Notes: a model not told the origin generated them from the sequence alone. DNA of 64,000 nucleotides from an uncultured Planctomycetota bacterium (GCA_900696465.1 CAADGE010000048.1:124001-188000), one strand, 5' to 3'. Positions 8,116 through 28,886 are shown, counted from the stretch's first letter. Made by a program: numbers and translations.

Positions 8116-8135
8116 TTTGGGCGCATCCCCTGTTG

Positions 8136-11352: not shown

Positions 11353-14300
11353 TCAGGCCGACCTGGCCACGGTCGTTGGCGTGTCGGGTACAGATCGGGG
11401 CGTTGTCGATGTCGATCCTGTTCTATCGCTCGCCGGATTCGGTGCGGGGGTTTGTTCGGGCACATCGTCGCCGAGCGTCTGTTTGAGCCATTGATTCAGC
11501 TTCTGATTCCGGGCCACGATTTGGCCCAGTGTGAGCTGCGTTGCCGTATTCGTTGCAGTCCCGGTGGATGTCTTCGAAGCGGCTGGCGTCGAGCCGACGG
11601 CCTGTTTTTGTGACTTCTCCGCATCGCGGCGACGCGTTGTCTGTTGTCGAGTTGCCGTGGTGGATGGTCTGTTGGCGACTGCCACAGCCTGCTGAACGCG
11701 GAGCGATGCTGTGGCTTGCGCTCCCCCTTCAAGCGTATGCGGCGCAGTGATCTGATCCGCGAGGACGGCCCGCAGTTGTTCCATTTCACGGGGAACTACG
11801 CCACGACAAAGCTCGTCGGCCTGATCGAGCCGACTGCGGATCTGCTGGATACGTGCACGGGCATCGAGCGAACCGTAGAGCTGCCGCACGATTCCCACCA
11901 GTTGTCCGACGCGCGCGGTCTGCTGCCGCAGGACTTCAATGCGTTTGTCGGCCTCGCCGGCGACCTGCTCGACACGCACGCGGGCCTGTTCGGCATGCTC
12001 GGCAGCCGCCGTGATCCGGTCTTCGATGCCGTTCGACGACTCCGTGAGACGCTGGACGATCTCCGACGTCTTCTTGGAGAGCTGTGCCAATCCGGCGGCG
12101 CGACGGCCGGCTTCGTCGATCAGTTCGCGGGGCAGATCGATCAGGGCCTGAGTGGACTGCTGCGCCTCCTCGGTGCGGCGAAGCAATGTTTCGATTTCCT
12201 CACGCGTCTTCTCGCAGGACTCTCGTATTTCATTCATGGTGCGGGCACTCTCGTCGCGCTGCTCGATGAGCAGGAGACGCGCCGCGTGTATCTGTTCGCG
12301 CGACAGTTCGGCTTCCTGTACTGCGCGCTGACGAATGGTCTGCAATTCGTCGGTGAACTTGCGGGCCATCGCCTCGGATTTTTCCATGGCCTGTTCGGCT
12401 CGGGCGATAGCGGCCTCTGCCATCGATCGGGCATCTCGCACGACGGATTGCGTCGTGGTCTGCGCCTGGTCGGCTGTTGCCTCGATCCGCTGCACGATCT
12501 GATCGGCGGCGGTGCGCACATCCGTCAGGACCTGCTCGGCTTTTTCCGTGAGCTTCGTCGCCGTGTCGGAGGTGCGGGTGAAGACGTCGCCGGCCCTGGC
12601 CAGCAATTCTGCGGCGCTTTGCTGAAGTTTTGTGACGGCCTGATCGGCCTCACGGCGCGCCGCGACGAGTCGATCGTGGTGAGCGGCGGCGTCGTCTTTG
12701 ATGGTCTGCCGGAGTGCGTCGAGCTGGTTGAAAATGGCCACAGCGGATCGTTGCTGACCTTCGGCGGCCTCGTGTGCCGTCGTCTGAACGTTGTCCGACA
12801 GACGTACGAGATCGGCGCGGATGGCACCGGCTCGGTCGTTCATCTGCAAAAGCATGGTGCGGACTTCTTCGAGGCGCTCTTTGCTCTCGTTGCGCATGGC
12901 TTCTCTGGCCGCTTTGGTCTCGCCGCGGAGCGCTTCCAGCGCCCCCTTGGCCTCAATGCGTATCGCGTCACCGGCGCTCCTTGACTCAATGCGAGCCGAT
13001 TGGGCGGTCTGGTGAGCATCCTCAATGAGCGCCAGGAGCTTCTGGCGGGTCTGTCGAAGTCGTTCGCCCAGTTCCGTGGTGAATGTTTTCGCTTCCGCAC
13101 GCAATGCTTCGCTGCGGCTTGCGGCATTCGACAGCTCGGCATGGAGTGAATCGGTCAGCGTCGCGGTGCGCGCCTGGATTGTCTTTTCGGCTTCGTCGCG
13201 GGCCTTGGCGATCGATCTACGCGCCGCATCGGCGGCGGCATCAAAGGAGCTGCGCAGGCCGTCGGCGATTTCGTGAAACTGCTGCATCTTCGCCTGGACG
13301 AGGAACATCTGCTGCTCGATCTCCGCAGCAATACGCTGCTGTACGCCGCCGACCAGGCGTTCAATCATTGCGGCAGCAACCTGTTCCTGTTGCTCGACGG
13401 TGACAAGGTGCATTTCAGCTTGCGATTCAGAGTCGGGTTGTGATGGCGCGGATTTGACGGCTTCGATCATCTGCCGCATCTCGGCTGATTGCTGTTGCGC
13501 CTCCTGAGTGACCCGGCGAAGCTCATCGTGCATTTCCGCGGTACGTCGACGCAGGCTTTCGGCTTCTTCATCGGCCGCGCGACGGACGGCGCGAAGCTCT
13601 CTGATTTCGTTGCGCAGGACTTCGATCTCATCAGCGGCCGATGTGGTGTCGGACATGTGATCGCCGCGGCTTCTTCTCGCTGATGAATCCTCGCGCTGCC
13701 GCAGATCGTCTCTACTGACCGATGCTGAACCGCTCGAAACTGGTACCGTACGGACATCAAGCTGCCGCACGATCGTGTCCACCAGCGCGGCTGTCACGAT
13801 CGTTTCCGATCGAGTGTATGCAGCGAGCAAAACGTTATCGCAGATGTGGTTAATTAGTCGGGGAATGCCTTCGGCGTGCCGGTGTATGGCTTCGAGAGCG
13901 TCCGGCGTGAACAGTTCGCGGCCGTTGCTCAGCCCGGCCGCCTCAAGGCGATGCGTGATGTAGGCGGCCGTCAACTCGCTGGTGAAAGCGGATAAGTGCA
14001 GACTGCGAAAGAGACGCTGCCGCAGATGCTGGAGATTTGATCGGCGCAGGATATGGTGCAATTCGGAATGGCCGAAGAAGAAGACCTGCAACAGTTTGGC
14101 ATCGTCGGCTTCGAGGTTACCGAGCAGGCGAAGTTCCTCGAAAGACTCCGGCGGCAGCATCTGGGCTTCGTCCACAGCCACCACGACGATTCGATCACGA
14201 GCGTACTGCTGAAGGAGGAACTCACGCAAGGCGTGCGCCAATTCCGCGGTTGGGGCGTCGGCCGATACCTCGAGGTCGAAGCCCCGACAGATTTCGTGCA

Positions 14301-14559
14301 GCAGCTCGCGCGGACTGCGGCGGGCGTTCGTGACAAAAGCGATGCGCAGCGTGGGCCCGAGCCGGGCGGTCAGGAGTCGCGTGAGCAGCGTCTTTCCGGA
14401 ACCCACATCACCGGTGACCACGACGAATCCCTTGCGCTGTTGAGCTGCGAAGATCAACGTGGCGAGGGCTTCTTCATGCTCCGGTGTGTTGAAGAAGAAG
14501 CGAGGGTCCGGCGTGTTATTAAACGGCGGCGTGTGCAGGCCGAAAAAGTCGCAGTACAT
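11353..14559 (-). CDS. ExeA/XrtA-type AAA ATPase fused to a giant coiled coil
   Basis: A 1068-residue protein. Residues 1-270 are an ExeA-like (general secretion protein A, TIGR03015-like) ATPase opening MYCDFFGLHTPPF. Walker A is GDVGSGKT at 50-57, Walker B is VVVAVDEAQ with DE at 130-131, and the arginine-rich SNLQHLRQRLFRSL follows. From about residue 305 to 960 the sequence is almost uninterrupted Ala/Glu/Arg/Gln heptads without proline, resembling apolipoprotein-type or chemoreceptor-like coiled coil; the last 100 residues are Thr/Pro/Ala-rich. Family members in EPS loci are normally about 270-350 residues, so the extension is unusual. It is divergent from the EPS genes starting at 15030. 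Role in the EPS or envelope machinery is inferred from context. The start is the conserved MYCDFF N-terminus. Confidence 0.88.
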   Translation of the reverse strand: MYCDFFGLHTPPFNNTPDPRFFFNTPEHEEALATLIFAAQQRKGFVVVTGDVGSGKTLLTRLLTARLGPTLRIAFVTNARRSPRELLHEICRGFDLEVSADAPTAELAHALREFLLQQYARDRIVVVAVDEAQMLPPESFEELRLLGNLEADDAKLLQVFFFGHSELHHILRRSNLQHLRQRLFRSLHLSAFTSELTAAYITHRLEAAGLSNGRELFTPDALEAIHRHAEGIPRLINHICDNVLLAAYTRSETIVTAALVDTIVRQLDVRTVPVSSGSASVSRDDLRQREDSSARRSRGDHMSDTTSAADEIEVLRNEIRELRAVRRAADEEAESLRRRTAEMHDELRRVTQEAQQQSAEMRQMIEAVKSAPSQPDSESQAEMHLVTVEQQEQVAAAMIERLVGGVQQRIAAEIEQQMFLVQAKMQQFHEIADGLRSSFDAAADAARRSIAKARDEAEKTIQARTATLTDSLHAELSNAASRSEALRAEAKTFTTELGERLRQTRQKLLALIEDAHQTAQSARIESRSAGDAIRIEAKGALEALRGETKAAREAMRNESKERLEEVRTMLLQMNDRAGAIRADLVRLSDNVQTTAHEAAEGQQRSAVAIFNQLDALRQTIKDDAAAHHDRLVAARREADQAVTKLQQSAAELLARAGDVFTRTSDTATKLTEKAEQVLTDVRTAADQIVQRIEATADQAQTTTQSVVRDARSMAEAAIARAEQAMEKSEAMARKFTDELQTIRQRAVQEAELSREQIHAARLLLIEQRDESARTMNEIRESCEKTREEIETLLRRTEEAQQSTQALIDLPRELIDEAGRRAAGLAQLSKKTSEIVQRLTESSNGIEDRITAAAEHAEQARVRVEQVAGEADKRIEVLRQQTARVGQLVGIVRQLYGSLDARARIQQIRSRLDQADELCRGVVPREMEQLRAVLADQITAPHTLEGGAQATASLRVQQAVAVANRPSTTATRQQTTRRRDAEKSQKQAVGSTPAASKTSTGTATNTATQLTLGQIVARNQKLNQWLKQTLGDDVPEQTPAPNPASDRTGSTSTTPRSVPDTPTTVARSA

Positions 14560-15029
14560 GCCTGGCTCCTGAGGACTGAACGGACGGATCGTGAGCCGGC
14601 ACTAAACGGCCGACTGCAGCGCGGCGCAGGTGTGATCTTCCACGCGCAGCGCGCCCGTGCATTCGTTATCGGAAGCGATTGCAAGACTGCTTGATGGTGA
14701 ATGAACGGCCTGCACGGCAGGAATTGCCGATCGCGCAGGCAAGTTCAGCCGTCAACGGATCGCCCGGCAGCTGACACGCGGGTAAACAAGTTCATGTGCA
14801 TACACGGCGACGTCATTCCGGTGGTGAACTCGTCTGTCGGCAGCGATGGAGCGCAGAAACTGCAGGCAGAACAACCGGTTGATACGGTCAGATATTCAGT
14901 TGCCGCGCGCGCCACCCGATAAACCGCTCGACCGCTTAATTGCGAGTCGGTCGTAGCCAGACCGGCAAACGGATTTGCCACGATAACGGTTGGGACATGA
15001 TGCAAAAGACGCACGGACGCGTATCAGCG
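14560..15029. other. Divergent intergenic region, ATPase / EPS operon
   Basis: About 470 bases that should hold the promoters of both the ATPase gene and the EPS run. I searched by eye for TTGACA/TATAAT pairs and for a sigma-54 GG-N10-GC element (used by PrsK/PrsR-regulated exosortase loci elsewhere) and found none that was convincing. A 73-codon frame at 14701-14922 has no coding character. Confidence 0.5.
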
Positions 15030-15833
15030 ATGAGTCGATCGCCGCGGTTTGCGACGGCAAACGGTTGCCAGCCACGCCGACGTCGCGGCATGGCCCTTTC
15101 GATACTCCTTCGCTTCGGAAGCTACGTTGCCGCATTTGGTTGCATGCTTTGGTGCGGCTGTGGGCCGAGCGAAGAACAGATTAACGCATTCGTCCATGAG
15201 TGGGAGGCGTCGGTCTCCGCGGCCGACTACCGCGTTCAGCCGCCGGACACGCTGGAGATCAGTTCCGCGCAGGCCCCGGAGCTTGACGGCGAAATACAAA
15301 CGATCCGCCAGGATGGCAAGATCACGCTTCGTCTCTTGGGCGAAGTGAAGGTCGCCGGACTGACGCCAGTTGAAATCTCGCGCAAACTCGAATCGTTGCT
15401 GGCCAGATACTACATCGAGCCGCAGGTAAGCGTTCGCGTGGATACCGCGGGCAGCAAAAAATTCTTCGTCTTCGGGCAGGTCTCGCAGGAAGGGGCCTTC
15501 GCCTACACAGGTCGCGACACGCTGCTTAGTGCACTGGCCCAGGCCAAGCCGACCTTCATCGCTGCCAAGGAGCAGATCAAGATCATCCGGCCCAGCCATG
15601 AAGAATCCAAACGACATGTTTTGAAAGTGGATGCCAATCGGCTTCTTGAGTACGGGATGATGGATCAAAACATCCTCCTGCAGGAGGGTGACATCGTTTT
15701 TGTGCCACCGACCGTGCTGGGCTGGATGGGCCTGCGTCTGCGGGAAATTCTGTTCCCGCTTCAGCCGGTGGGCCAGGCGTATGTCACGCCTGCGAACGTG
15801 GTGGCGGCCAATCGCATCTATCAAGATCCCTGA
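15030..15833 (+). CDS. Wza/GumB-like polysaccharide export lipoprotein
   Basis: A 267-residue export protein. A basic N-terminus and hydrophobic segment end in LWCGC, a plausible lipobox, so the mature protein is probably lipid-anchored. The Poly_export domain begins YRVQPPDTLEISS, continues IRQDGKITLRLLGEVKVAGL, and is followed by an SLBB unit (KKFFVFGQVSQEGAF) and a final INILLQEGDIVFVPP-like block. This is the outer-membrane or periplasmic export channel subunit of an EPS system (family like TIGR03027 in exosortase loci). Possible starts are ATG 14997, 15030 and 15090; none has a strong ribosome site and 15030 was chosen because it gives a normal basic n-region. It is the first gene of the EPS run, 24 bases before the chain-length gene. 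Confidence 0.88.
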   Translation: MSRSPRFATANGCQPRRRRGMALSILLRFGSYVAAFGCMLWCGCGPSEEQINAFVHEWEASVSAADYRVQPPDTLEISSAQAPELDGEIQTIRQDGKITLRLLGEVKVAGLTPVEISRKLESLLARYYIEPQVSVRVDTAGSKKFFVFGQVSQEGAFAYTGRDTLLSALAQAKPTFIAAKEQIKIIRPSHEESKRHVLKVDANRLLEYGMMDQNILLQEGDIVFVPPTVLGWMGLRLREILFPLQPVGQAYVTPANVVAANRIYQDP

Positions 15834-15857
15834 ATCAGTTGGAGCAGGTACGGACCT

Positions 15858-17564
15858 ATGCAGCATCACATGGACGAATTCAGCGTGACGGATTTTCGCT
15901 ACACGTTCGGCGAGGTGTGGCGGGTCGTCCGCAATCGGCGCTGGCACTTTCTGCTGCCCTTCTGCGCGGTCGGTTCGATCGCCATGATCGCATCGCTCTG
16001 GGTGCCGCGCACCTACACCGCGACGACGGTGATCAAGCGCGAGCATGATCCGGTGCTGGCCAGCATGATGGGCCGCGCCTGGACCGAGCCCTACGGCGAA
16101 ATGCGCAAGCGAATCGCCGGGGATCTGACGGATCTCGATTTCCTGACCGGCGTGCTCGAAGAACTCGATCTGCCGACGAATCTGCCTCGATTTGAGAATG
16201 GCGAGCTGACACCTGGGGGCGAGCGACGCCGGCGCGACCTGGCCACGCGGATTGCACAGGGGCTGACCATCACGCCCGTCGAGACGACACCGAATCGGGA
16301 TGTGCTGACGATCCGGCTGGCACTGGACGAACCGGCGCATCTTGCGGAGATACTATCGACCTGCCGCGATCGCTACATCCAGGAGGCGCAGAAGAAGACG
16401 GTGCGCATCCTTCGGGACGTGGAAAAGTTTTTCCAGGCAGAGTCCGAGCGCAGCCGGGCGCGGCTGGCAGGGCTACAGAAGCAGATCATCGAGTTCGAGC
16501 TGAAGTATCCGGGCATTGACCCGTTGATGCCGGATCCGACGCAGACCGAACAGACCTCGTTGATCGTTGAGCGGCTGGATCAGGAGCGTCAGCGCGATGA
16601 ACTGACTGCGGAACGAGAGAAGCTGCTGGCCCGGCTGGCTGCGGCTCAAATCGACGGCAGCGCAGGGGAGAGCGCGATTGCATGTACCGATCATCAGCGC
16701 GTGAACCCACGGTTGGAAGAACTCGAAGGAGAAATCCACCGGCTCGAAGCGGAGATCGTCCAGAACAAGCAGACACGGCTGATGACGGAGTACCATCCGA
16801 CGATCGTTCGCCTGCGGAAGACCATCGAGGCGAGGCAGGAGGAACTGGCCTCGCTCCCGAGGATGATTCCACGGGATGATCTGCCGGCAGAGCCGGTCCT
16901 GAGCGTACAGGAACAATATCAGAATCAGATTGCCGCGCAGGATACAAAGCTCGCTGCGGTGACTTCGCGTCTGAAGGAAATCGCCGAACAGATTGCCGGA
17001 ATCGAGCGCCGGCGCGTGCAGACAGCCGATCAGCGGGAGTCCTACCTCAAACTGCGTGAGAGTGCTGAACGACATCGTGAGGAGCTCGCCAGCTGGCAAT
17101 CCAATCTTGGTCCGATCGCTCACCTGCTGGCGGTGGAAGACAGCAACCGCGGGCTGCGATTTACGACCATGCAGGAAAGTACCATGAACCCGCGTCCGAT
17201 CTCGCCGGATTCCCGGGTTGTACTTTTGGCCTGCCTGGCGATCGGGGTGGCGGTGGGGGCGTTATGTGTCATGCTTGCAGAACTGTTTGATCGGTCCTTC
17301 CAGACGGTCAAGCAGCTCAGTTCGTCTCTGACCATCCCGGTGATCGAGAGCGTGGATGAGATTCTGACGAAACCAGCCCGTCGGCGCCGACTGGTCAGCC
17401 AGTTCGTGCTGATGCCGGCGGCCGCGGCAGGATTGCTCCTGGCGCTCCTGACCACCGGATCGCTGGCATACCTGAGCATCGAGCGTCCGAGTCACATTGA
17501 ATCGCTCCAGCTTACAGAGAGCCGTACGAATGGCGTGGCATTTGGTGAGTTCGACGCAGAATAA
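15858..17564 (+). CDS. Wzz/GumC-like polysaccharide chain-length determinant
   Basis: A 568-residue inner-membrane co-polymerase that sets glycan length and links the synthesis and export parts. The Wzz domain is at the N-terminus with the first transmembrane segment near residues 33-50 (FCAVGSIAMIASLWVP). A long periplasmic coiled coil rich in Glu, Arg and Gln follows (about 190-430). A second membrane segment near 455-475 (LACLAIGVAVGALCVMLAEL) is preceded by the proline-containing MNPRPISPDSR motif typical of the family. A third hydrophobic stretch occurs near 520-540. It resembles the TIGR03007 chain-length proteins of exosortase-type EPS loci. It has no fused kinase domain; the separate kinase gene follows after 61 bases. 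Confidence 0.88.
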   Translation: MQHHMDEFSVTDFRYTFGEVWRVVRNRRWHFLLPFCAVGSIAMIASLWVPRTYTATTVIKREHDPVLASMMGRAWTEPYGEMRKRIAGDLTDLDFLTGVLEELDLPTNLPRFENGELTPGGERRRRDLATRIAQGLTITPVETTPNRDVLTIRLALDEPAHLAEILSTCRDRYIQEAQKKTVRILRDVEKFFQAESERSRARLAGLQKQIIEFELKYPGIDPLMPDPTQTEQTSLIVERLDQERQRDELTAEREKLLARLAAAQIDGSAGESAIACTDHQRVNPRLEELEGEIHRLEAEIVQNKQTRLMTEYHPTIVRLRKTIEARQEELASLPRMIPRDDLPAEPVLSVQEQYQNQIAAQDTKLAAVTSRLKEIAEQIAGIERRRVQTADQRESYLKLRESAERHREELASWQSNLGPIAHLLAVEDSNRGLRFTTMQESTMNPRPISPDSRVVLLACLAIGVAVGALCVMLAELFDRSFQTVKQLSSSLTIPVIESVDEILTKPARRRRLVSQFVLMPAAAAGLLLALLTTGSLAYLSIERPSHIESLQLTESRTNGVAFGEFDAE

Positions 17565-17625
17565 GCGAACCGGAGCGGTCGCATCCGGCAAACGCTAAGC
17601 CGGCAGGGAGGCGGTCGAGTAAGTC

Positions 17626-18582
17626 ATGGGACACATCGCAGAAGCATTGAAGCTGGCCGAGCGGCAGCAAACCGAGCGGAATCGGTTAGCCGGGCATGAC
17701 GTTCTCGCGGCGACGCAGGGTGGGCATGCCCTGCTGGACAATGCGGCCGTCGAACGCCCTCCTCGTACTTGTTCGCACTTGCCTCGCCCGTCGGACGACA
17801 TGGTCTGGCCGCGTGCCGAGGCAGCAGGACGCAGCGAAGGCGAACTACTCCATGACCCGTTGCACGACATTTTACCCGGGACCGAACTCAACGCAGACTG
17901 GAAGGTTGATCCGACCATCGTGGCCATCCACGACAAGACAGGTTCCGTTGCCGAGCAGTATCGAGCCATCCGGACCTGGCTGCTGTGTCGGGCTCGGGCG
18001 AATGAACGGACCTGTCTGGCCATTACCAGCAGCGTGCCGGGCGAAGGCAAGACGGTCACGACGGCAAATCTTGCCGTGGTGATGGCGGAAATCCGTCGGA
18101 TGCGCGTCCTGGCGCTGGACTGTGACCTGCGACAGGGCGAACTAGCGTCTCGGTTCTGTGTGCCGGGCACACCGGGGTTGGTCGAGTTGCTGTCCGGGCA
18201 GGTCAAGCTGGATGAAGTCCTGAAGCCGACGCCGCTGGGAAATCTGTTTGTGCTGCCGGCGGGACAGCTTGGCCAGACGAACCCGACGGAACTGCTGAAT
18301 TCAACGTCTGCAACTCGGGTGTTCGACGAAATCCGCGAGAGATTCCATTACACGCTGGTCGATACACCTCCGGTGCAGCGCGTGTCCGATGTCGGGGTAA
18401 TCGGCGCCTTGTGCAGCGCGGTGGTCGTCGTGGTCCGGCTGCACCGGACGGCGACGCACCTCGTCCGGCAATCCGTCCAGTGGCTGCAGTCGAACCAACT
18501 GAACGTGATGGGCAGCATCGCCACGGGAAGCAGCTTGCGGGATGCGATGGAGGGCTATTGCCCGTCGCGCAACGGTGAGTGA
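17626..18582 (+). CDS. BY-kinase family protein (CpsD/CapB-like) of the EPS cluster
   Basis: A 318-residue cytoplasmic P-loop protein of the bacterial tyrosine kinase type. Walker A is SSVPGEGKT (135-143), Walker A' is VLALDCDLR (161-169) and Walker B is YTLVDTPP (242-249). The signature EQYRAIRTWLL (110-120) precedes the P loop as in CpsD/Wzc. The C-terminus (DAMEGYCPSRNGE) has a single tyrosine rather than a tyrosine cluster, so autophosphorylation of a Tyr tail is doubtful. An N-terminal segment of about 90 residues is variable. It should act with the chain-length protein encoded just upstream (TIGR03018-like pair). Confidence 0.88.
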   Translation: MGHIAEALKLAERQQTERNRLAGHDVLAATQGGHALLDNAAVERPPRTCSHLPRPSDDMVWPRAEAAGRSEGELLHDPLHDILPGTELNADWKVDPTIVAIHDKTGSVAEQYRAIRTWLLCRARANERTCLAITSSVPGEGKTVTTANLAVVMAEIRRMRVLALDCDLRQGELASRFCVPGTPGLVELLSGQVKLDEVLKPTPLGNLFVLPAGQLGQTNPTELLNSTSATRVFDEIRERFHYTLVDTPPVQRVSDVGVIGALCSAVVVVVRLHRTATHLVRQSVQWLQSNQLNVMGSIATGSSLRDAMEGYCPSRNGE

Positions 18583-18654
18583 GCCCCCACCTTCGTCTCT
18601 ACGCTCCGGACGGATGCACGCAGGAAGGGGAGCGCAGCACGCTCCGCTCGAAAC

Positions 18655-19704
18655 ATGACTGGCGCCGTGATCCACGTCCGATCCTACGAACCTGAACTGG
18701 CAGCGTCGTGGGCGGACTACGTCGGCGGGCATCCGGACGGCACCTTCTTTCACGAACTTGCATGGAAATCCGCGGTAGAGACCGCGTTCGGCCATCGCGC
18801 GCAAGATCTGATCGCGCTGCGCGGTCGGCGGATCGTCGGCGTGCTGCCGATGTTTCAGATCGAAAGCGTGATTGCCGGTCGGATGCTCGTCAGTCAGCCC
18901 TACGCGACGTACGGGGGCGTGCTGGCGGATGATGCAGAGGCATCGGCCGTGCTGATCGCCGAAGCGCAGTCGCTGATGCGTCGCTGCGGGGCGCGGGTGC
19001 TGGAGTTGCGATCGATCCGCGCGGCCAGTGAGGACCATTCGATCCGGCGCAGTCACGCGACGTATATCCGCGATCTCCCTCGCGATCCTCGACTGGTAGA
19101 TGTACTGTTGCCGCGTAAGGCGCGGGCTGCCGCTCGAAAGGCCGTGGAGCGGTCTTCACTCACGGTCGAGTTCGGCCGCCATCTGCTTCGTGATATCTGG
19201 CGACTCTACATCCGCTCCATGCGCAAACTCGGATCGCCTAACTATCCCCTGCGATTCTTCGAGGCGATTGACCGTGCGGCATCCGGAAGCGTTGTATCGC
19301 AAATGGTTCGATGCGATGGCGTTCCGGTCGCGGGGCTCCTGACGTTCGTGCATCGCGGAACGGTCATGCCCTACTTCGTGGGCATGGACGATCGCCGGGA
19401 AATTTACGGCCTCTCGCAGTATGTCTACGTTGAGTCCATGCGCCACGCCGTATCGCTGGGCTGCGAGCGATACGACTTCGGCCGCAGCCGGATCGACAAT
19501 ACCGGCGCGTGCGCCTTCAAGCGCGGCTGCGGTTTCGAGCCACGCGTGCTGGAGTATCAGGATATCGTGCCGAAGGGCTCGGCCGCGCCGGACCTGGCGC
19601 CTTCGTCACCGCGATGGCGTGCGGCGCGGCATCTCTGGCGGAAGCTGCCGCTGGGGGTCACGCGCCCGCTCGGTTCATGGCTGGCGCGATCGATTCCCGG
19701 TTGA
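18655..19704 (+). CDS. FemAB-like acyltransferase of exosortase/EPS loci
   Basis: A 349-residue GNAT-fold protein of the FemAB type found in exosortase A loci (TIGR03019-like). Recognisable blocks are HPDGTFFHELAWKSAVETAFGH with the usual LIALRGRRIVGVLPMF, then QPYATYGGVLAD. A second half follows with LLTFVHRGTVMPYFVGMDD and YDFGRSRIDNTGACAFKRGCGF. FemAB proteins transfer aminoacyl groups to peptidoglycan stems; in this subfamily the substrate is unknown and may be the exopolysaccharide. The start ATG at 18655 has no obvious ribosome site. Its TGA overlaps an ATG for the next gene (TGATG at 19702-19706). Confidence 0.85.
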   Translation: MTGAVIHVRSYEPELAASWADYVGGHPDGTFFHELAWKSAVETAFGHRAQDLIALRGRRIVGVLPMFQIESVIAGRMLVSQPYATYGGVLADDAEASAVLIAEAQSLMRRCGARVLELRSIRAASEDHSIRRSHATYIRDLPRDPRLVDVLLPRKARAAARKAVERSSLTVEFGRHLLRDIWRLYIRSMRKLGSPNYPLRFFEAIDRAASGSVVSQMVRCDGVPVAGLLTFVHRGTVMPYFVGMDDRREIYGLSQYVYVESMRHAVSLGCERYDFGRSRIDNTGACAFKRGCGFEPRVLEYQDIVPKGSAAPDLAPSSPRWRAARHLWRKLPLGVTRPLGSWLARSIPG

Positions 19705-19727
19705 TGGGTCAGCGGCAGGTGAGGCGG

Positions 19728-21080
19728 ATGTCTCGACGCGGAAACATTCTGTTCCTGGCGCATCGTGTGCCCTTTCCACCGGACAAGGGGGACAAGATTC
19801 GCACGTATCATCAGCTCCGTCGGCTGGCATCCAACCATCATGTCTACTGTGCCTGCTTTGTGGACCGCCCGGAAGATCGCTTGCACGCCGCTGCTCTGCA
19901 CGAGTGGTGTAGCGAGGTCTGTGCGATTGACTGGTCGCGCTCTCGTGCGATGTGGCGCGCGGCCGCAGCGATGTTGCGCGGCGGGACGCTGACCACGGCG
20001 GCTTATGACTGCCCGGCCATGCGGCGTCAGATCGACGCATGGAACGCGACGATCGAGTTTGACGCAGTGGTGGCCTTTTCGGCTTGCATGGCGCCTTACG
20101 CCGAACAGGCAAGGGCCAGGCGCCGAGTGCTGGATTTGTGCGACGCCGACAGCCGGAAGTGGCTGGACTATGCTGAGCGCGGCCACGGTCTTCGGTCGCG
20201 CATTTATGGCATCGAGGGCAGACGCCTGGAAGCATACGAGCGAAAATGCGTGGCACGATTCGATGCCACGATCGTCATCACGGATCGCGAGCGCGCGCTG
20301 CTGGATCCTGACGGGCGGTTCGATCGGTTGCATGTCATTCCCAACGGTGTGGACCTGCCGGCAATCGATGTGCCTTCAGCGGCCGGCTGCGATCCCGTCA
20401 TCACCTTCGTCGGGGCGATGGACTACCCGCCGAACGTGAGCGGTATCCTCTGGTTTGCGCGGCATGTATGGCCGGGTGTGCAGAAGGCAGTTCCAGGCGC
20501 TCGGCTGATGATCGTGGGTCGCAACCCCGCGCGGGAAGTGCGCGGCCTGGCTCGACTCCCCGGCGTGTGCGTTACCGGAGAAGTGCCATCGGTCTGGCCC
20601 TATCTGCTTCGGTCGCGTGTAGCGATAGCGCCGCTTCACATTGCCCGAGGGTTGGCCAACAAGGCATTGGAGGCGATGGCATCGCGTCGGCCGCTGGTGG
20701 CCACGACCGGGGTCGCGCAGAGTCTGGGCGCCGAGCCGGATCGACACATGTTGACGGCGGATGACGCGACATCGTTCGCTCGGCAAGTGATACGACTTTG
20801 CAGAAGCGATCCGTTGTGTAACCGTTTCGCAGAGGCCGGCTATCGGCACGTGGCGATGAATTACTGCTGGGCGGAAGCCATGGATCGATATGCGGCCGTG
20901 GTCATGGGAAGGCAGGGGCTCGGACCGACGGTGACCAGGATGCGATCAAAGCAGATCGTGCGCTCTACGAGTGAAGAAATCGAGAACATAACGAAGTGCC
21001 TGCTGCCTTCGGATCGCGGAGTGAGGCAGGAAATGCCGAAGCCGACCCACGACTTCCGATATCGCTACAGTCCGACCTGA
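19728..21080 (+). CDS. Glycosyltransferase, TIGR03087-like (exosortase-locus type)
   Basis: A 450-residue GT4-type enzyme. It opens GNILFLAHRVPFPPDKGDKI and contains DLCDADSRKWLDYA, which matches the D-x-D-SxKW signature of the exosortase-associated family. Later come FDATIVITDRER and the GT4 donor-side blocks ITFVGAMDYPPN and VAIAPLHIARGLANKALEAMA. It should add a sugar to the growing EPS repeat in the cytoplasm. The ATG at 19728 follows AGGTGAGG (19717-19724); an alternative ATG at 19704 overlaps the preceding stop. The last 35 residues are low-complexity and may be less constrained. Confidence 0.88.
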   Translation: MSRRGNILFLAHRVPFPPDKGDKIRTYHQLRRLASNHHVYCACFVDRPEDRLHAAALHEWCSEVCAIDWSRSRAMWRAAAAMLRGGTLTTAAYDCPAMRRQIDAWNATIEFDAVVAFSACMAPYAEQARARRRVLDLCDADSRKWLDYAERGHGLRSRIYGIEGRRLEAYERKCVARFDATIVITDRERALLDPDGRFDRLHVIPNGVDLPAIDVPSAAGCDPVITFVGAMDYPPNVSGILWFARHVWPGVQKAVPGARLMIVGRNPAREVRGLARLPGVCVTGEVPSVWPYLLRSRVAIAPLHIARGLANKALEAMASRRPLVATTGVAQSLGAEPDRHMLTADDATSFARQVIRLCRSDPLCNRFAEAGYRHVAMNYCWAEAMDRYAAVVMGRQGLGPTVTRMRSKQIVRSTSEEIENITKCLLPSDRGVRQEMPKPTHDFRYRYSPT

Positions 21081-21182: not shown

Positions 21183-22721
21183 GTGGCACAGATCAGTTCG
21201 TACATCCCGATTCCGATCTTCGAGCGGCCGCGCCCGAGACCTGACCTTCGCTACGTTGACCAGGAGCTTGACCGGGCAGATTTGCCGCACCTTGAATCGA
21301 TGGTTGAAACGCCCGCGGACGACACCGGTTTGCGGTGCAGAGTTCTCGTGATCGCGAGCCGCTTTCCGCCGGTTGCATCGGTTGGCGCCACGCGCATTCG
21401 CAAGTTTGTAAAGTACCTGCCGCAATTCGGATGGGACGCGGTTGTGCTGACCGGTGCGCAGCGGGCCGGGCGCATCTCTGCTCACGATGTTCGCCGTGCG
21501 GTCGATCTCGAAAGTCTGAAAGATATACCCGAAACGGTGCCGGTACATCGCCTCAGCGCGGTGCTCGATAATCTGCCGGGACATGTTTCACGTCGAACGG
21601 CAAAGCTCCTGGGAACGCTGACCGGCTTTACGGGCATGGACGAAGCAAGGTGGGGCGCGGCGCTCAAGTGGAGGTTGCAGCGGGCGCACGATTGCCTCAC
21701 CTTCCCCGATCGCGGCATCTGGCGGTGGCCCGCGGCCGTGCGCGACGCCCTGCGGCTGCATCGGCAGTACGATTTTGACGCGATTTTCTCATCGGGCATG
21801 CCGTTCAGTGATCACCTGATCGCGCTGACGGTTTCGATGTTGATTCGTCGACCCTGGCTGGCGGATTTTCGTGATCCATGGGTGGAGTACGTTCACTGGC
21901 GACAATGGAGGAGCAATCGCGGTGAGCTCCTGACGCAGGCCTGCGAGGCGGCCGTAGTTCATCGTGCGGCGCGCGTTTTGAGCGTCAACGATTCGATGAC
22001 CGAGCGCTTTCGCGCGCGGTATCCACGGTTGCGGAAAGCTAAGTTTGTGACGCTGCCCAACGGATTTGATCCGGCGGATTTTCCGAAGGACCGCACGTTG
22101 GGCGAACCGAACATCTTTCGACTCCTGCACGCCGGTTCCCTGTACTCCGCGCGAAGTCCGCAAGCGGTGATCGAGGCCTTCCGACGCTTCATCCGCGAAA
22201 CTCCGGACAGTGCTGATCGTGCGCGGCTCGATTTCGCAGGTCGGCCCGGACCGTTTCTGGCGGAGCTAAGCCGCCCTGAAGACCGTGGAACGATTCGCTA
22301 CCTCGGCATGCTGCCGCATTCGAAAGCCCTCGAGGCGATGGCCGCGGCAGATGTGAACCTGATCATCCTGCCGGACGTGCCCGGTAGTGAGGGAGACTCG
22401 ACGGCAAAGATGTACGAATGTCTTGGCAGCGGGCGGATGGTGCTCGCAACAGTCCCGCTTAACGGTGCGGCGGCTCGTGAACTTCGCAACTACGAAGGCG
22501 TGCAGATCTGTGCTCCTGATGATGTCGATTCGATCCGCAAAGCGATCGGAGCGATGTATCAGGCATGGCGTACCAGCACGACGAGAGTCGCGCGACCGGC
22601 CGGACAGCTGGCGACCATCGATCGACGGCGACATACGTCAAAGCTGGCGGAGATTCTCACGAGCGTAGCCGCACGGCGAAGCGCTGTGCACGCAGGACGG
22701 ACACAGGAGTACCAGGGATGA
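21183..22721 (+). CDS. Glycosyltransferase family 4-like protein
   Basis: A 512-residue GT-B glycosyltransferase. An N-terminal extension of about 50 residues precedes RVLVIASRFPPVASVGATR, the start of the acceptor-binding domain. A later LADFRDPWVEYVHW block and VTLPNGFDPADF mark the family of sugar transferases common in capsule loci, and the donor domain has ADVNLIILPDVPGSEGDSTAKMYE. The GTG at 21183 was chosen because AAGGA (21171-21175) precedes it by seven bases. The paralogue at 24772 shares the DLRDP/NGYDPADC pattern. The stop overlaps the deacetylase start by four bases (ATGA), indicating coupled translation. Confidence 0.85.
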   Translation: MAQISSYIPIPIFERPRPRPDLRYVDQELDRADLPHLESMVETPADDTGLRCRVLVIASRFPPVASVGATRIRKFVKYLPQFGWDAVVLTGAQRAGRISAHDVRRAVDLESLKDIPETVPVHRLSAVLDNLPGHVSRRTAKLLGTLTGFTGMDEARWGAALKWRLQRAHDCLTFPDRGIWRWPAAVRDALRLHRQYDFDAIFSSGMPFSDHLIALTVSMLIRRPWLADFRDPWVEYVHWRQWRSNRGELLTQACEAAVVHRAARVLSVNDSMTERFRARYPRLRKAKFVTLPNGFDPADFPKDRTLGEPNIFRLLHAGSLYSARSPQAVIEAFRRFIRETPDSADRARLDFAGRPGPFLAELSRPEDRGTIRYLGMLPHSKALEAMAAADVNLIILPDVPGSEGDSTAKMYECLGSGRMVLATVPLNGAAARELRNYEGVQICAPDDVDSIRKAIGAMYQAWRTSTTRVARPAGQLATIDRRRHTSKLAEILTSVAARRSAVHAGRTQEYQG

Positions 22722-23740
22722 GTCACTGGCTGGCGAAAGCGGAGTTCGATACCTGGACGGGGCAGTGGCTGCGCCGGATGCGACGTCGGCAGAACGAGCG
22801 ATGCATCAACATCCTCGCGTATCATCATGTACTGCCGGAGGATCATCTCTTCACGCGAGGCACAACACTGCGTCACGATCCTGTCGAGTTCGAGCGCCAG
22901 ATGGACTACCTTGTGGAGCATTATCGCCCGATCGGTCTTCGCGAGCTGGTCGATGCCTTGGATCGCAGGGAGGAGCTTCGGCGGGCCGTAGTCGTCACCT
23001 TTGACGACGGACTCGCGGACTCGCTGCGGATCGCCATGCCGATTCTCCGTCGGCGTCGCATTCCGATGACCATCTTCGCGGTCACGTCGGTGATCGGGAA
23101 TGCGGACCTACAGTGGCAGCACAAGCTACGCTGGCTGGTCAATCAGGGTCTTGGCGAAAAGGTTCGAGAAGCCATGACCATTGAGGGTTTCCCGCCGTCG
23201 CGGGAAGACGAAAGCGTAGAGGAGTACGCGCGGCACCACTACCGAGTCGATCTCTCTGAGATACTCGAGATTCTTGTGAAGGCAACAGGTACCACGGGTG
23301 CGGCGCTGGCCGGCAGGATGAGGCCTTATCTCGAACCCGAGGAGATGGCCGAGGTCGACGCCGAGCTGGTCGAGTTCGGGAACCACACGCATACACATGC
23401 CATCCTCTCGGCACTGAGCGAAGCCGACCAGCGCGAGGAGATCACTCGCGGGCGGGATGTTCTGCGGTCGATCGTGGGGTACGAACCGCTGGCACTGGCC
23501 TATCCCTTCGGGTTGAAACGCCACTACACAGAGACCTCGAAGCGACTGGTCGCCGAGGCAGGGCATCGCGCGGCGCTGGATGCCCGACGACGGATCAATC
23601 GCGCTGCGGCCGACCCGTTCGAGCTGTCGCGTAAGCCGGCCCCCTGTGGATCGCAGCGAGCATTTGAACAGATGATTGAGGACTGGCCTGACAACGCGCT
23701 GTTGCCGGTTCCGCGCACCTCGCCGGGAGGTCGATCATGA
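22718..23740 (+). CDS. Polysaccharide deacetylase (NodB-type)
   Basis: A 340-residue carbohydrate esterase 4-type enzyme predicted to remove N- or O-acetyl groups from the EPS. The entry block is INILAYHHVLPEDH (about 30-43). The catalytic base and metal motif is TFDDG (94-98), and the metal-binding histidines are in GNHTHTHAIL (about 221-230). A final PFGLKRHYTE block resembles motif 3. The spacing between TFDDG and the histidines is longer than in classic NodB, as in EPS-locus deacetylases. No signal peptide is evident, so it may act on a cytoplasmic lipid-linked intermediate. Both ends overlap neighbours by four bases (ATGA at 22718 and 23737). Confidence 0.88.
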   Translation: MSHWLAKAEFDTWTGQWLRRMRRRQNERCINILAYHHVLPEDHLFTRGTTLRHDPVEFERQMDYLVEHYRPIGLRELVDALDRREELRRAVVVTFDDGLADSLRIAMPILRRRRIPMTIFAVTSVIGNADLQWQHKLRWLVNQGLGEKVREAMTIEGFPPSREDESVEEYARHHYRVDLSEILEILVKATGTTGAALAGRMRPYLEPEEMAEVDAELVEFGNHTHTHAILSALSEADQREEITRGRDVLRSIVGYEPLALAYPFGLKRHYTETSKRLVAEAGHRAALDARRRINRAAADPFELSRKPAPCGSQRAFEQMIEDWPDNALLPVPRTSPGGRS

Positions 23741-24723
23741 ACACGATCCGCCGCACCCTGGTCGTCGCCCCGTACATCGGCGAGTTCGGCTGGGAACTGA
23801 TGAACTGGCAGGGCCGTGTTCGCTGGCTGACGGCCCGCGGCGGCTTTGAGCGCCTGGTGGTCTGCGCCCGCACCGATCGTCGGCCGCTTTACGGAGAAGT
23901 TCCCGGCCGGGTGCCGGTGGTCTTCTGCCCGGTGCCGGCGTTCGAGATGCCCGGTGAGGCGAATGAGGATCATCGAATCTGGCCGGACGGACGACCGGTC
24001 GATTCGAAGCTGCTCCGCGAACTGGTGCTCGAGCAGATTCGATCGGCTTGCGAGCAGGGCGGCGTCGATCTGACTGATGCCAACCTGATGGTTCCGGGCT
24101 TCCGAGGGCGAACCTGGTCGACGGAGCGATCAGAGCAGGTTTTCGATACCCTGCGGTTCTCGCTGACGCTTACGACGGATGTGCTGCTGGTGCCGCGCTC
24201 ACGGCACAGCGCGACGGAGCGTAATCGTCCGCTGTCATGGTGGGAGGACCTGGCGGCTCGGCTGACGGGTGGCGGGTTGCGTGTGGAACTGTACCGTGCG
24301 CCCCTGGAAGAATCGATTCGCCAGCTTTCCCGCTCGCGGCTTGCGGCGGGGGCTTCGACCGGAGGTCTTCACCTGGCGAGCTTGTGTCGTTGTCCGCATT
24401 ACGTCTGGGGCAGTGATGGCAATGCGCGTTGGACTCGCTGGGGAATGACCAATCGTCAGCGCTATGAGACCGTGTGGAATCCGCTTGGCACCCCCTGTCG
24501 ATACGACGAGTGCGGCTGGCAGCCGGACGCAGCATACGCGGCTGATCAGATTCGACGCACCCTCGACGAGATTGGCCTGACGGACTCGAATGCGGCGGGT
24601 TCCTGGGCACTGCGACCCGCATGGCGGGTCAAACGTGGACTGGCGCGCGTACTGCATCCTGCGGACGGCGCATCGCCATGGCCCTGGCGATTGAGACAAC
24701 TGGTACGCGAGCGGCTGGTCTAG
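23737..24723 (+). CDS. EPS-cluster protein of unknown function, glycosyltransferase-like
   Basis: A 328-residue protein I cannot assign. It opens with a distinctive APYIGEFGWELMNWQGRVR and has a mid-region rich in arginine and tryptophan. It contains GASTGGLHLASLCRCPHYVWG (about 203-223), which recalls the STGxLHLA donor-site loop of GT9 heptosyltransferase-type GT-B enzymes. On that basis a divergent glycosyltransferase is possible. There is no signal peptide and no membrane segment. It starts inside the deacetylase gene (four-base ATGA overlap) and lies between glycosyltransferases, which supports a cytoplasmic sugar-assembly role. Confidence 0.7.
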   Translation: MNTIRRTLVVAPYIGEFGWELMNWQGRVRWLTARGGFERLVVCARTDRRPLYGEVPGRVPVVFCPVPAFEMPGEANEDHRIWPDGRPVDSKLLRELVLEQIRSACEQGGVDLTDANLMVPGFRGRTWSTERSEQVFDTLRFSLTLTTDVLLVPRSRHSATERNRPLSWWEDLAARLTGGGLRVELYRAPLEESIRQLSRSRLAAGASTGGLHLASLCRCPHYVWGSDGNARWTRWGMTNRQRYETVWNPLGTPCRYDECGWQPDAAYAADQIRRTLDEIGLTDSNAAGSWALRPAWRVKRGLARVLHPADGASPWPWRLRQLVRERLV

Positions 24724-24771
24724 GCCGCTGGAACGATATTCGACGATCGGCCGGTGCAAGGACGTACAGGC

Positions 24772-26142
24772 GTGTTAACAGAACGACATCTGCTGCTGAT
24801 TGCCTATCACTTCCCGCCCAGAGGCGGCAGCGGCGTGCAACGCGCGCTCAAACTGGCCAGGTACCTGCCGCAGAGCGGTTGGCGGGCGCACGTCATCTGC
24901 GCGGGGCATCGACATTTTCCGCTCATGGATGAATCGCTTCTCGAGGAAGCGGACACGGCAAGCGTATACCCCACGCGCGGATACGAGCCCGCTGCGATAG
25001 CGAAGCGGTTGGGCGACACCTTCGGCGCTTTGATCGGTGGTCGAAGTCTGGGCGATTCGCTGGCCTGGCGGCTGAATCTCTGGTTTGACCGTCTTGGTTT
25101 GAATCAGCTGCTGATGGAGCGAGAGCGCCTGTGGACGGCCTCTGCATACGCCCAGGCGAGGCAGATCGCATGCCAGTATCCCATTGAAGCCGTGCTGACG
25201 ACCTCGCCGGTCTGTGCCACGCATCTGGTTGGACGGCGAATCAAAAGGCGGCTTGGACTTCCGTGGATCGCTGATCTGCGCGATCCGATTGTTGATAATT
25301 TTGTCCGCGAGACGCGCTCCGCGCTGGTGCAGCGATCCCGAAGGCGGATCGAGCAACAGGTCCTGTGCGAAGCCGATCAGGTCGTCGTAACCTGTCCGGA
25401 GCTGGGCGACCGATTGACCGAGCGATATGCGTCGGCGATCGCTCGTCCGATCCTCACTATCCCCAATGGTTACGATCCGGCGGATTGCCCTGCGGCGCCG
25501 GCTCGTAATTCGTCCGGCATGGATCGCTTCACCCTGACATATGTCGGGTCTTTCTATCGTGAGCAGTCGGTTCTACCACTCGTCGAGGCGCTTCGGGAGC
25601 TTCGGCAGAGGCAGACCGAGTTGCCGGCACGCATCATCCTTCGAATCGTCGGCAGTATCTCAGAGTCACAGCGATCGCTGCTTCGGGAGAAGGATCGCGA
25701 GTTAATCGAGATCGTCGGCTACCAGACTCATGCGCAGGCGGTCGCCGAGATGGCCGCGGCGGATGCACTCATCTTAACGATTCCCTCCAACGAGGGAGGG
25801 CGTTACTGCATTCCGGCCAAGGTCTATGAATACCTGGCGTTTGGCGGACACATCCTGGCGAACGTCCATCCCGGCACAGCCATCGCGGGAATCCTCCAGC
25901 AGGCAGGCGGCTGCACGTTGCTCTCGGAGTCGAGTCCTCAGGCATGGCGGCAGGCCATTGTGCAATGCTGCATGGAATGGAAAGCCGGCCGGCTGACAAC
26001 GCGTCATCGAACCGAAGTCGTTGAACGATTCCGCAGAGACAGGTTAACGGCGCTCTACGCTCGCGCGATCGAGAGTTGCCTGACCCCGGGTGAGGAACGA
26101 CTGGCGATGCCCGATCCGTTCTCGGTAAAGGAGGCGGCGTGA
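24772..26142 (+). CDS. Glycosyltransferase family 4-like protein
   Basis: A 456-residue GT-B enzyme. It opens LTERHLLLIAYHFPPRGGSG followed by VQRALKLARYLP, typical of GT4 transferases of capsule loci. LPWIADLRDPIVDNF and LTIPNGYDPADC match the same blocks in the gene at 21183, so the two are probably ancient paralogues. The donor side has AAADALILTIPSNEGGRYCIPAKVYEYLA, where the glutamates typical of the nucleotide-sugar site are visible. The GTG at 24772 was preferred over GTG 24754 because AAGGA at 24758-24762 precedes it by nine bases. The stop overlaps the next start (GTGA at 26139-26142). Confidence 0.87.
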   Translation: MLTERHLLLIAYHFPPRGGSGVQRALKLARYLPQSGWRAHVICAGHRHFPLMDESLLEEADTASVYPTRGYEPAAIAKRLGDTFGALIGGRSLGDSLAWRLNLWFDRLGLNQLLMERERLWTASAYAQARQIACQYPIEAVLTTSPVCATHLVGRRIKRRLGLPWIADLRDPIVDNFVRETRSALVQRSRRRIEQQVLCEADQVVVTCPELGDRLTERYASAIARPILTIPNGYDPADCPAAPARNSSGMDRFTLTYVGSFYREQSVLPLVEALRELRQRQTELPARIILRIVGSISESQRSLLREKDRELIEIVGYQTHAQAVAEMAAADALILTIPSNEGGRYCIPAKVYEYLAFGGHILANVHPGTAIAGILQQAGGCTLLSESSPQAWRQAIVQCCMEWKAGRLTTRHRTEVVERFRRDRLTALYARAIESCLTPGEERLAMPDPFSVKEAA

Positions 26143-27443
26143 AAATCGTCTGGCACATGCCAACGCTACGCCGAACAGGCTGCGGGCTGTCGAAGCGCGC
26201 CGTTGAGCTGGCTGTGCGCGCGGCCGCGGCAGGTCACACGGTCCGATTCGTTGTTGATCATCGCAAGTGTGATGGCGATTTGCGCGAGATCGCAGGGATT
26301 CCCGTCGAACGGATAAAGACGGACGCTCCGATACCCTGGCACTGGTCGTTGCAGGCGCGATCGCGCCGACATGCCGCCGGTCAGGCACTGTGCGCGATCG
26401 GAAACGAGCACGACCTGCTGGTTACCTGCCAACCCGAAGTAGCGGCCGTTTACGGGTCGCAGGCGAATCGCTCACCACTTGTTTTTGTCTGCGGCGGTAC
26501 CACGTTGCTGCACGATGCGACGGACCAGTGCAGCCAGGCAGGGCGTGGCGTTTTATATCGTGCGGCAGCGGCACTGGACCGCCAGATCAAGCAGCGAAAC
26601 GAGCGAGCCGCCGTTCAACGCTGCGATCTCGCGGTGTTTAACAGCGTCCATACGCGAGAGCGCGTGATTGCGACGTATGGCGTTGATCCTGCAAAGTGTT
26701 TCACGGTCTACGGCGGCACCGATTCGGAACAGTTCATGCCGGTCGATGCGTCGTCTCGATCGGTGATTCGCGGCCGGCTTGGCATTCCGTCGGGGGCGTT
26801 TGTCATTTGCTGGAGCGGACGACTGTCCCCGGAAAAGCATGTTGCATTGCTGATCGACGCAGCCGCGCGGATGGAGCGAGAAAATCTGCAAGTCGTTCTG
26901 GTCGGCGATGGTCCGCTGCGGAGAGAACTGGAAGTCCGGGTTGATCACCACCGGCTGCAGAAGATCGTTCTGTTTGCCGGAGAGCAGCGGAATGTCCATC
27001 ATTGGCTGCAGGCCGCTGACGTGTTTGCATTTCCGTCGCGCGGTGAATCGTTCGGCAACTCTCTTGCGGAGGCGATGAACTGTGGACTTCCATGCGTAGC
27101 GCTCCGGCCCGACGGCCGAACGATTTGCAACGCCTCCATCGAGATTCTAGACGGCGGCCGTTGCGGACTGCTGGTGGACCGTGACAATCCACACGACTTT
27201 GCTGAAGCGCTGGAGCGGCTTCGGGCTGACAGCGCGCTGCGCAGCGAGCTGGGCATGGCGGCGCGGGTGCGCGCCTCAAACATGTTCACATGGGATCGCG
27301 CGAGCCGCGAATTCATCTCGCTGCTAGAGCGACTCGCGAGCAATGGTTCGACCGTTGCAGCAAGGCCGGAGGCCGTAAAAAAACGGTCAGACGCACAGTG
27401 CATGCTCGAACGGTCGAGATGGAATTCGTTGAGCCAGACGTAA
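26139..27443 (+). CDS. Glycosyltransferase family 4 protein
   Basis: A 434-residue retaining GT-B enzyme and the most canonical GT4 of the cluster. CWSGRLSPEKHVALLIDA begins the donor domain, VVLVGDGPLRREL follows, and the EX7E-type catalytic block is FPSRGESFGNSLAEAMNCGLP. The N-terminal domain opens KIVWHMPTLRRTGCGLSKRA. The GTG start at 26139 has an excellent ribosome site (AAAGGAGG, 26127-26134) and overlaps the preceding stop by four bases. A residual 12 bases separate it from the ligase-like gene. The sugar donor is unknown. Confidence 0.9.
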   Translation: MKIVWHMPTLRRTGCGLSKRAVELAVRAAAAGHTVRFVVDHRKCDGDLREIAGIPVERIKTDAPIPWHWSLQARSRRHAAGQALCAIGNEHDLLVTCQPEVAAVYGSQANRSPLVFVCGGTTLLHDATDQCSQAGRGVLYRAAAALDRQIKQRNERAAVQRCDLAVFNSVHTRERVIATYGVDPAKCFTVYGGTDSEQFMPVDASSRSVIRGRLGIPSGAFVICWSGRLSPEKHVALLIDAAARMERENLQVVLVGDGPLRRELEVRVDHHRLQKIVLFAGEQRNVHHWLQAADVFAFPSRGESFGNSLAEAMNCGLPCVALRPDGRTICNASIEILDGGRCGLLVDRDNPHDFAEALERLRADSALRSELGMAARVRASNMFTWDRASREFISLLERLASNGSTVAARPEAVKKRSDAQCMLERSRWNSLSQT

Positions 27444-27455
27444 GCGAGGACCGCG

Positions 27456-28886
27456 ATGCGTTTTGCATTCTATGTTGCTCTGCTGCTGGCGGTCCTGCCG
27501 CTGGTATTAAGCCGACCTTTCTTCGGCCTGTGCGTATATTACGTGGTCTCGCTGCTGCAACCGAAGATCTTCTGCTGGCATCCGGATTTCCAGGATGCAA
27601 TGCTCGTCGGTGTTCCACTGGTCATCGGCGCCATGACCATCGGTGTTCGCCGCGTGCAAGTCGTTCCAAGCCGCGAGGTGCTTACCGGCCGGATCATCGG
27701 CTGGCGCGAGCGGCTGACGCAGAACATGCTCTTCGAGCCGGCATGGCCGCTGCTGGCGCTCTTATTGCTGCTGATCTACATCACCATTAACCGGGCAGTC
27801 GCGCCGTACCCGATGGGGCACACGGCCTTTCAGTATCGCGCGCTCTGGAAGATTTTTATCGTTACGGCGCTGCTAACGGGAATGGCCTCCGACCATCGCC
27901 GAGTGCGGATTCTCTACATCGTCGTGGCAATGGCGACGGCGTTCTGGGCGATCAAGGGCGGTCTGAAGGTCGTACTGCTTGGTCCGCACCAGGTCTACGG
28001 CAAGAGCTATGACAACAACCTCTTCGCACTGACCAGCGCCATGGTCCTGCCGATGATCTTTTACTACGGCATGTCGATCAAGAGCCATCGCTGGCGAAAC
28101 GTTCTGCTGGTCTGTGCCGTGCTTGTCTGCCTGGCGATCATCTGTTCACGCAGCCGCGCGGGCTTCCTTGCGCTGGCCGTGGTCCTGACTGGTATGGCAT
28201 GGCACAGCCGTTATCGTCTGCGAGCGGTTGCGGCGGTCGTGCTCGTGCTGGTCGTGGCGTTCACGACCTCCGGCGGGGAGATTCTGGAACGCTTCGATTC
28301 CATCGTGAACTACCATGAGGACAAGTCCGCGCGTTCACGCTTGTGGACCTGGCAGGTATCCGGCAAGCTCCTGATGCAAAGCCCGCTGGTCGGCGTGGGG
28401 TTCAACAACTTCGAACTCGCGAACCGCATAACGGAAGGCAGTCGCAAGGCGGCGCACAACATTTACCTTCAGAACCTGGCCGAACTGGGACTGCTGGGGC
28501 ATCCCCTGTGGCTGATCGTCGTGATCGGCTCGTATTTCTCAATGTTCCGCTTCATGCGCCGGACGCGAAAGCTGCCACCCGACATGCGCTGGTCGTACAA
28601 TCTGGCGCGGGGGCTCTGGCTTGGGATGACGGCTTACTGCATCCACGGTATTTTTCATAATGAAGAATATCTCGAGCTTATGTTCACGCTCATCGGTCTG
28701 CACGTCGCGCTGAAGGTCGCAACGCGTCGGCAGCTCGAAGCTCGGCGAATCATTGCGGAATCGCCGCCGATCGACGGATCTTCCGCTCCGTCGTCGACAA
28801 CCACCTCGAGGCCGCCGAAGAAACGACCGCAACCCATGCATCCGGGAAGAATGTTCCCGGCGTGGCCGCGCCCGGGCATGGCCTGA
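27456..28886 (+). CDS. O-antigen ligase/polymerase-like membrane protein (exosortase A type)
   Basis: A 476-residue polytopic protein with about twelve hydrophobic segments and a proline-rich cytoplasmic-looking tail. AFWAIKGGLKVVLLGPHQV followed by YGKSYDNNLFAL is the signature of the exosortase A-associated putative O-glycosylation ligases (TIGR03097-like). The large loop with SARSRLWTWQ and AHNIYLQNLAELGLLG is the Wzy_C/O-ligase core. It would polymerise the EPS repeat or attach glycan at the periplasmic face. It is the last gene of the EPS run and ends seven bases before the convergent M48 peptidase stop; no terminator hairpin is visible between them. Confidence 0.88.
   Translation: MRFAFYVALLLAVLPLVLSRPFFGLCVYYVVSLLQPKIFCWHPDFQDAMLVGVPLVIGAMTIGVRRVQVVPSREVLTGRIIGWRERLTQNMLFEPAWPLLALLLLLIYITINRAVAPYPMGHTAFQYRALWKIFIVTALLTGMASDHRRVRILYIVVAMATAFWAIKGGLKVVLLGPHQVYGKSYDNNLFALTSAMVLPMIFYYGMSIKSHRWRNVLLVCAVLVCLAIICSRSRAGFLALAVVLTGMAWHSRYRLRAVAAVVLVLVVAFTTSGGEILERFDSIVNYHEDKSARSRLWTWQVSGKLLMQSPLVGVGFNNFELANRITEGSRKAAHNIYLQNLAELGLLGHPLWLIVVIGSYFSMFRFMRRTRKLPPDMRWSYNLARGLWLGMTAYCIHGIFHNEEYLELMFTLIGLHVALKVATRRQLEARRIIAESPPIDGSSAPSSTTTSRPPKKRPQPMHPGRMFPAWPRPGMA

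Follow-up and report, generated by a model that had tools for sequence, protein, structure and literature searches.

Exopolysaccharide (EPS) families correlated with PEP-CTERM proteins have been found almost invariably near EpsH (Haft et al. 2006, PMC1569441), and the locus described here raises the question of whether such a gene set can do its core work without an exosortase. The window, a 64,000-nucleotide stretch (G000:C48:124001-188000) of a metagenome-assembled genome (MAG) of 4.14 Mb in 48 contigs that is 96.8% complete, carries at positions 11353-28886 a 12-gene EPS cluster, in the order given in Table 1. Checking the ORFs at the coordinates of the preliminary description showed every frame to be intact, with all of the gene families named there recovered. 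The same cluster order, again without an exosortase, recurs in 11 of 12 genomes of the same family, which excludes a chance grouping of these genes; the twelfth (G208) holds the front half of the cluster on a short contig. GT4 is missing in two same-family genomes, and some contigs or stretches end early.

Table 1. Genes of the EPS cluster, with positions counted from the first nucleotide of the window and profile scores in bits.
Feature	Position	Strand	Evidence and remarks
ExeA-like AAA ATPase	11353..14559	-	TIGR03015-like residues 1-268, 234.5 (cut-off 324.5); divergent transcription; ~800-residue soluble helical/coiled-coil tail
Wza-like polysaccharide export lipoprotein (Poly_export + SLBB)	15090..15833	+	PF02563 72 (cut-off 28); PF22461 31.6; TIGR03027 95.8 (cut-off 180); ORF open from 14940, lipoprotein-like start near 15090
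Polysaccharide co-polymerase/chain-length protein (PCP)	15858..17564	+	TIGR03007-like, 76.7 (cut-off 278.9); no Pfam match; hydropathy peaks close to both termini
Stand-alone BY-kinase	17626..18582	+	Intact Walker motifs; loss of the C-terminal Tyr cluster; TIGR03018 139 (cut-off 230.7); TIGR01007 119.7 (cut-off 108)
FemAB-family (GNAT) protein	18655..19704	+	TIGR03019 276.9 (cut-off 260.4)
Glycosyltransferase stp1	19728..21080	+	TIGR03087 377.4 (cut-off 316.7); ORF open from 19509
GT2, GT4-type glycosyltransferase	21183..22721	+	PF13579, PF13439; conserved in f1
Polysaccharide deacetylase	22718..23740	+	PF01522 71.9; ATG overlaps the stop of the upstream gene
X328, conserved 328-aa protein	23737..24723	+	Kept in 10 same-family genomes, many invariant residues; dN/dS 0.21
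GT3, GT4-type glycosyltransferase	24754..26142	+	PF13579, PF13439
GT4, GT4-type glycosyltransferase, stp2-like	26139..27443	+	TIGR03088 116, under cut-off; PF00534 108
Wzy_C/PEP_O_lig_1-like membrane protein (polymerase or ligase)	27456..28886	+	PF04932 69 (cut-off 31.7); TIGR03097 183.3 (cut-off 188.1)

The conserved protein X328 gave no match in Pfam and NCBIfam profile searches; its invariant stretches include GEFGWELMNWQ and STGGLHLASLC. The cluster is flanked by genes for a multi-PDZ HtrA-like protein (8998-11148) and an HtpX-like M48 protease (28894-30483), both of which also adjoin it in same-genus genomes.

Resemblance to the XrtA system proved uneven across the cluster. The only locus members to pass NCBI's XrtA-system cut-offs were the FemAB protein (TIGR03019) and the TIGR03087 glycosyltransferase, two of the families whose NCBI names carry 'XrtA/PEP-CTERM system'. 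The ATPase, the export lipoprotein, the chain-length protein and the kinase scored well under the cut-offs of the corresponding profiles, the kinase passing TIGR01007, and the Wzy_C protein fell narrowly short of TIGR03097. The deacetylase gave no TIGR03006 match in the NCBIfam profile search and is thus not of the XrtA type. In genome-wide profile scans nothing in the window rose above cut-off for an exosortase, a PF02397 transferase, a TIGR03108-like amidotransferase or a PEP-CTERM protein, and no flippase family of Pfam or NCBIfam matched any locus protein, in agreement with the absences first reported for this DNA.

An exosortase is nevertheless encoded elsewhere in the genome, and the possibility of an exosortase-free organism was rejected. 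The gene, of EpsH type (G000:C30:142075-142848), scored 185.6 bits against PF09721 and 146.1 bits against TIGR02602 (cut-off 105.6), and its sequence has the Cys, Arg and His motifs; against the XrtA profile TIGR03109 it reached 140 bits, under the cut-off of 208. It lies in an operon comprising genes for a Wza-like protein, the exosortase, an EpsI-like protein, a 1518-aa TPR protein and an 875-aa Wzc-like protein, an arrangement (WzaX-Xrt-EpsI-TPR-WzcX) common to this genome and its relative G002. The genome also encodes 31 PEP-CTERM proteins above the PF07589 cut-off, against none in 14 control genomes. The preliminary description had offered two readings, an XrtA encoded elsewhere or an exosortase-independent EPS system, and had regarded an unlinked xrtA with many PEP-CTERM proteins as evidence against the latter. 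An unlinked exosortase and its putative substrates are largely what the genome holds, although the enzyme is not an XrtA by cut-off; support for exosortase independence concerns the type of locus rather than the window's own genome, and comes from the order-wide non-linkage and the f4 family described below.

Other parts of the genome touch on the same theme. PF02397 sugar transferases are encoded on contigs C27, C46 and C40, and TIGR03108-like amidotransferases occur on contigs other than that of the window, all below cut-off. Contig C40 (L286) carries at 369-10286 a separate polysaccharide locus with a Wzy_C protein, a WecG-type transferase, a PF02397 transferase and a weak flippase match (20 bits). 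A small XrtH-like exosortase of 203 aa is encoded on C19, scoring 70.2 bits against XrtH (cut-off 86), and its gene overlaps that of a 281-aa protein without known family (L002; 1414-2867, + strand).

All 12 same-family genomes carry both FemAB and an exosortase. In the closed relatives G002 and G038 the two lie 1.33 and 1.53 Mb apart by their coordinates, the opposite way round the circular chromosome being no shorter in either, and in G124 the separation is 1.87 Mb. An exosortase within 40 kb on the same contig was found at none of the 42 FemAB loci of the window's order, many of which lie on short contigs. The locus is under purifying selection in its own family, with dN/dS values of 0.04-0.21 across the 12 cluster genes between G002 and G038.

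Surveying the 248 genomes of the class, we found TIGR03019 in 78 and exosortases in 241, both being present in 76 of the 78 FemAB-positive genomes. Other families do show linkage, with an exosortase 1-3 kb from FemAB in G175, G039 and G053 and 19 kb away in G043 and G050. A separate scan of public MAGs covered 80 FemAB loci, many on short contigs; only in Singulisphaera acidiphila did an exosortase-like gene lie closer than about 10 kb, roughly 6 kb from a FemAB-stp1 pair. In a quick-method tree of 79 exosortase sequences, the FemAB-linked enzymes of 550-690 aa form a separate clade (support 100) that is absent from the window's own family, so the window's locus lacks a dedicated exosortase of the type linked elsewhere. 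The own-family exosortases of ~330 aa form one clade (support 100) inside a widespread group shared with f2, f3, f5 and f14; the grouping appears to track families roughly, as expected under vertical descent. The C30 enzyme groups with this widespread ~330-aa paralogue, and its candidacy as the displaced partner of the locus was not supported. A second exosortase in G124, which belongs to the window's genus, falls in a third group of the tree.

Separation within one genome is taken further by f4, a family of the same order represented by three MAGs from three genera (93, 94 and 80% complete). All three encode a TIGR03019 FemAB above cut-off, and neither an exosortase (searched at E 0.001) nor a PEP-CTERM protein was detected in any of them. 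The Wza-PCP-BY-kinase-FemAB block is intact in all three and is followed by stp1 (TIGR03087) in two, the contig of the third ending there. Rough dN/dS values are about 0.12-0.32 where synonymous sites are unsaturated. The f4 FemAB sequences cluster with those of the order, for which the FemAB tree, with its many weak forks, makes vertical descent likely. The converse also occurs: seven same-order genomes have an exosortase and no FemAB, with 9-46 PEP-CTERM proteins in the three tested. The f4 locus is not an exact copy of that in the window, the genes downstream being different and including a Wzm/Wzt-like ABC exporter. In the set L102, L143; L211, L217, L221, Wzm/Wzt-like genes come after the FemAB block in f4 and recur in similar form in some related loci, suggesting a switch of export route. 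In the exosortase-less G031 (L102), three genes of low third-position GC separate FemAB from stp1 (10623-12809), in what looks like a recent insert. G226, which has FemAB, no exosortase and one weak PEP-CTERM match, was set aside as main evidence; its FemAB belongs to another clade and has a different neighbourhood.

The genes present and their conserved order, the lack of linkage to an exosortase, the purifying selection and the survival of the core in f4 together lead us to read the locus, with a probability of about 0.7, as an EPS synthesis and export cluster of XrtA-locus ancestry that is separable from exosortase sorting and whose core job needs no exosortase. The main competitor is coupling in trans, in which PEP-CTERM proteins would find their acceptor or matrix, on the canonical XrtA pattern, in the polysaccharide itself or in a lipid-linked glycan that the TIGR03097-like protein moves, the genes being merely scattered. 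The intact exosortase and the 31 PEP-CTERM proteins make such coupling possible in the window's genome, and it would accord with the two proteins above XrtA-system cut-offs, with FemAB loci lying beside the long exosortase in other families of the class, and with the retention of both components throughout the window's family. However, f4 has retained the core although no exosortase or PEP-CTERM protein was detected there, most exosortase-bearing genomes of the class do without FemAB (the 241 against 78 above), and the exosortase has a Wza/Wzc operon of its own. We therefore regard coupling in trans as unlikely, though as a serious minority view.

Far less credit is due to the two remaining explanations. 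Assembly, binning or faulty detection might account for the missing exosortase in the locus or in f4, since these are MAGs and some are very fragmented (G248 in 470 contigs, G249 in 350). Yet the same separation is seen in the closed or near-closed relatives G002, G038 and G124, and the search was sensitive enough to recover exosortases from nearly every genome of the class and even the small XrtH-like protein. The three independent f4 MAGs agree with one another; from their completeness, and assuming independence, the chance of missing one gene in all three is ~0.0008. Surveyed genomes elsewhere have 9-81 PEP-CTERM matches, G226 excepted, so that the complete lack of them in f4 is not explained by a single missing contig, and for some ten or more dispersed genes to be missed in each MAG by chance would be far less likely still, again assuming independence. 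An artefact is accordingly very improbable. Marginally less probable again is the view that the cluster is decaying, as the remains of an XrtA system whose exosortase was lost: it would suit a locus devoid of flippase, initiating transferase and amidotransferase and a BY-kinase devoid of its Tyr cluster, but the frames are all intact, the synteny is kept across the genera of the family, and selection on the genes is purifying.

Within the reading of a separable EPS cluster, family membership suggests the following route. An initiating sugar transferase from elsewhere in the genome (C27, C46 or C40) would place the first sugar on undecaprenyl phosphate, and stp1 and the three other glycosyltransferases would lengthen the repeat unit, to which the FemAB-like GNAT protein may add a decoration, an aminoacyl or acyl group. 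A transporter encoded elsewhere would flip the unit, and the Wzy_C protein would then polymerise or transfer it, with chain length probably set by the co-polymerase together with the stand-alone BY-kinase. The deacetylase would trim the polysaccharide and the Wza lipoprotein would export it. Exosortase/PEP-CTERM sorting would form a separate system in another operon, with its own Wza and Wzc.

The ATPase and the kinase of this cluster share a lineage-specific peculiarity. Soluble ATPase tails of 700-1500 residues, with abundant Ala, Glu, Arg and Gln but little Pro or Gly, are confined to f1 and f2, where the long-tailed proteins measure 1021-1821 aa (L091-L099, L101, L109, L150, L162); total length is 384-394 aa in f5 and 289-320 aa in f14/f15. 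The tail of the window's ATPase contains no TM segment. The last 40 residues of the BY-kinase mostly hold 0-3 Tyr in f1/f2, compared with 7-11 in f4 and f5, with exceptions both ways. Long tails and few Tyr are associated (Fisher p 4e-4), but both changes probably arose as one event in the f1+f2 lineage; the p value does not count as independent evidence, and the link is suggestive only for that reason. Myxococcus provides a scaffold-type BY-kinase partner of this Tyr-less kind in EcpK, which is without a phosphorylatable Tyr (PMC12004946). On this basis it is conceivable, if rather doubtful, that the EPS machine of the window's family is both exosortase-independent and controlled without phosphorylation of the BY-kinase tail, the coiled-coil tail of the ATPase governing co-polymerase assembly, or its placement within the cell, instead.

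Experimental precedent for EPS assembly without an exosortase comes from Methylobacillus 12S, in which disruption of epsH was reported to leave methanolan production unaffected (PMC1569441). Among open-licence papers we found no report of this gene set persisting without any detectable exosortase. The f4 core, with neither exosortase nor substrates detectable, indicates that the EPS module can stand alone and that family names containing 'XrtA/PEP-CTERM' can mislead; f4 also provides a natural contrast for separating the parts of exosortase-EPS loci that serve sorting from those that serve polysaccharide assembly.

Compared with known systems, the cluster shares with the XrtA/PEP-CTERM EPS locus (the EpsH system of Methylobacillus, Zoogloea and Aquincola) its ATPase, export lipoprotein, chain-length protein, BY-kinase, FemAB protein, TIGR03087 glycosyltransferase and TIGR03097-like protein, but lacks the exosortase, EpsI, the TIGR03108 amidotransferase and an EpsB-type transferase; its deacetylase is not TIGR03006, most of its members score under XrtA cut-offs, and the exosortase occupies a separate operon. 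Closer at hand, the FemAB loci of other Phycisphaerae (G043, G050) share the Wza-PCP-(ATPase)-BY-kinase-FemAB-stp1 core and a TIGR03097-like protein. These two, together with G175, G039 and G053, differ from the window in having an exosortase of 550-690 aa 1-19 kb from FemAB, fused to EpsI in the copy scanned from G043, and in G043 and G050 the ATPase is short (293-320 aa) and inside the operon, whereas that of the window is long and divergent. Among markers of the Wzx/Wzy pathway, Wzx and the initiating transferase are absent from the locus, and Wza, BY-kinase and Wzy_C score over cut-off. The version of that pathway with a split PCP-2 and BY-kinase, Myxococcus EpsV/EcpK, resembles the locus in Wza, Wzy_C and a BY-kinase-like partner separate from the co-polymerase, which in the window is a candidate with a TIGR03007 score under cut-off; the window's locus, without Wzx, departs from it in a kinase whose Walker motifs look intact and in having an ExeA-type ATPase that carries a long coiled-coil tail.
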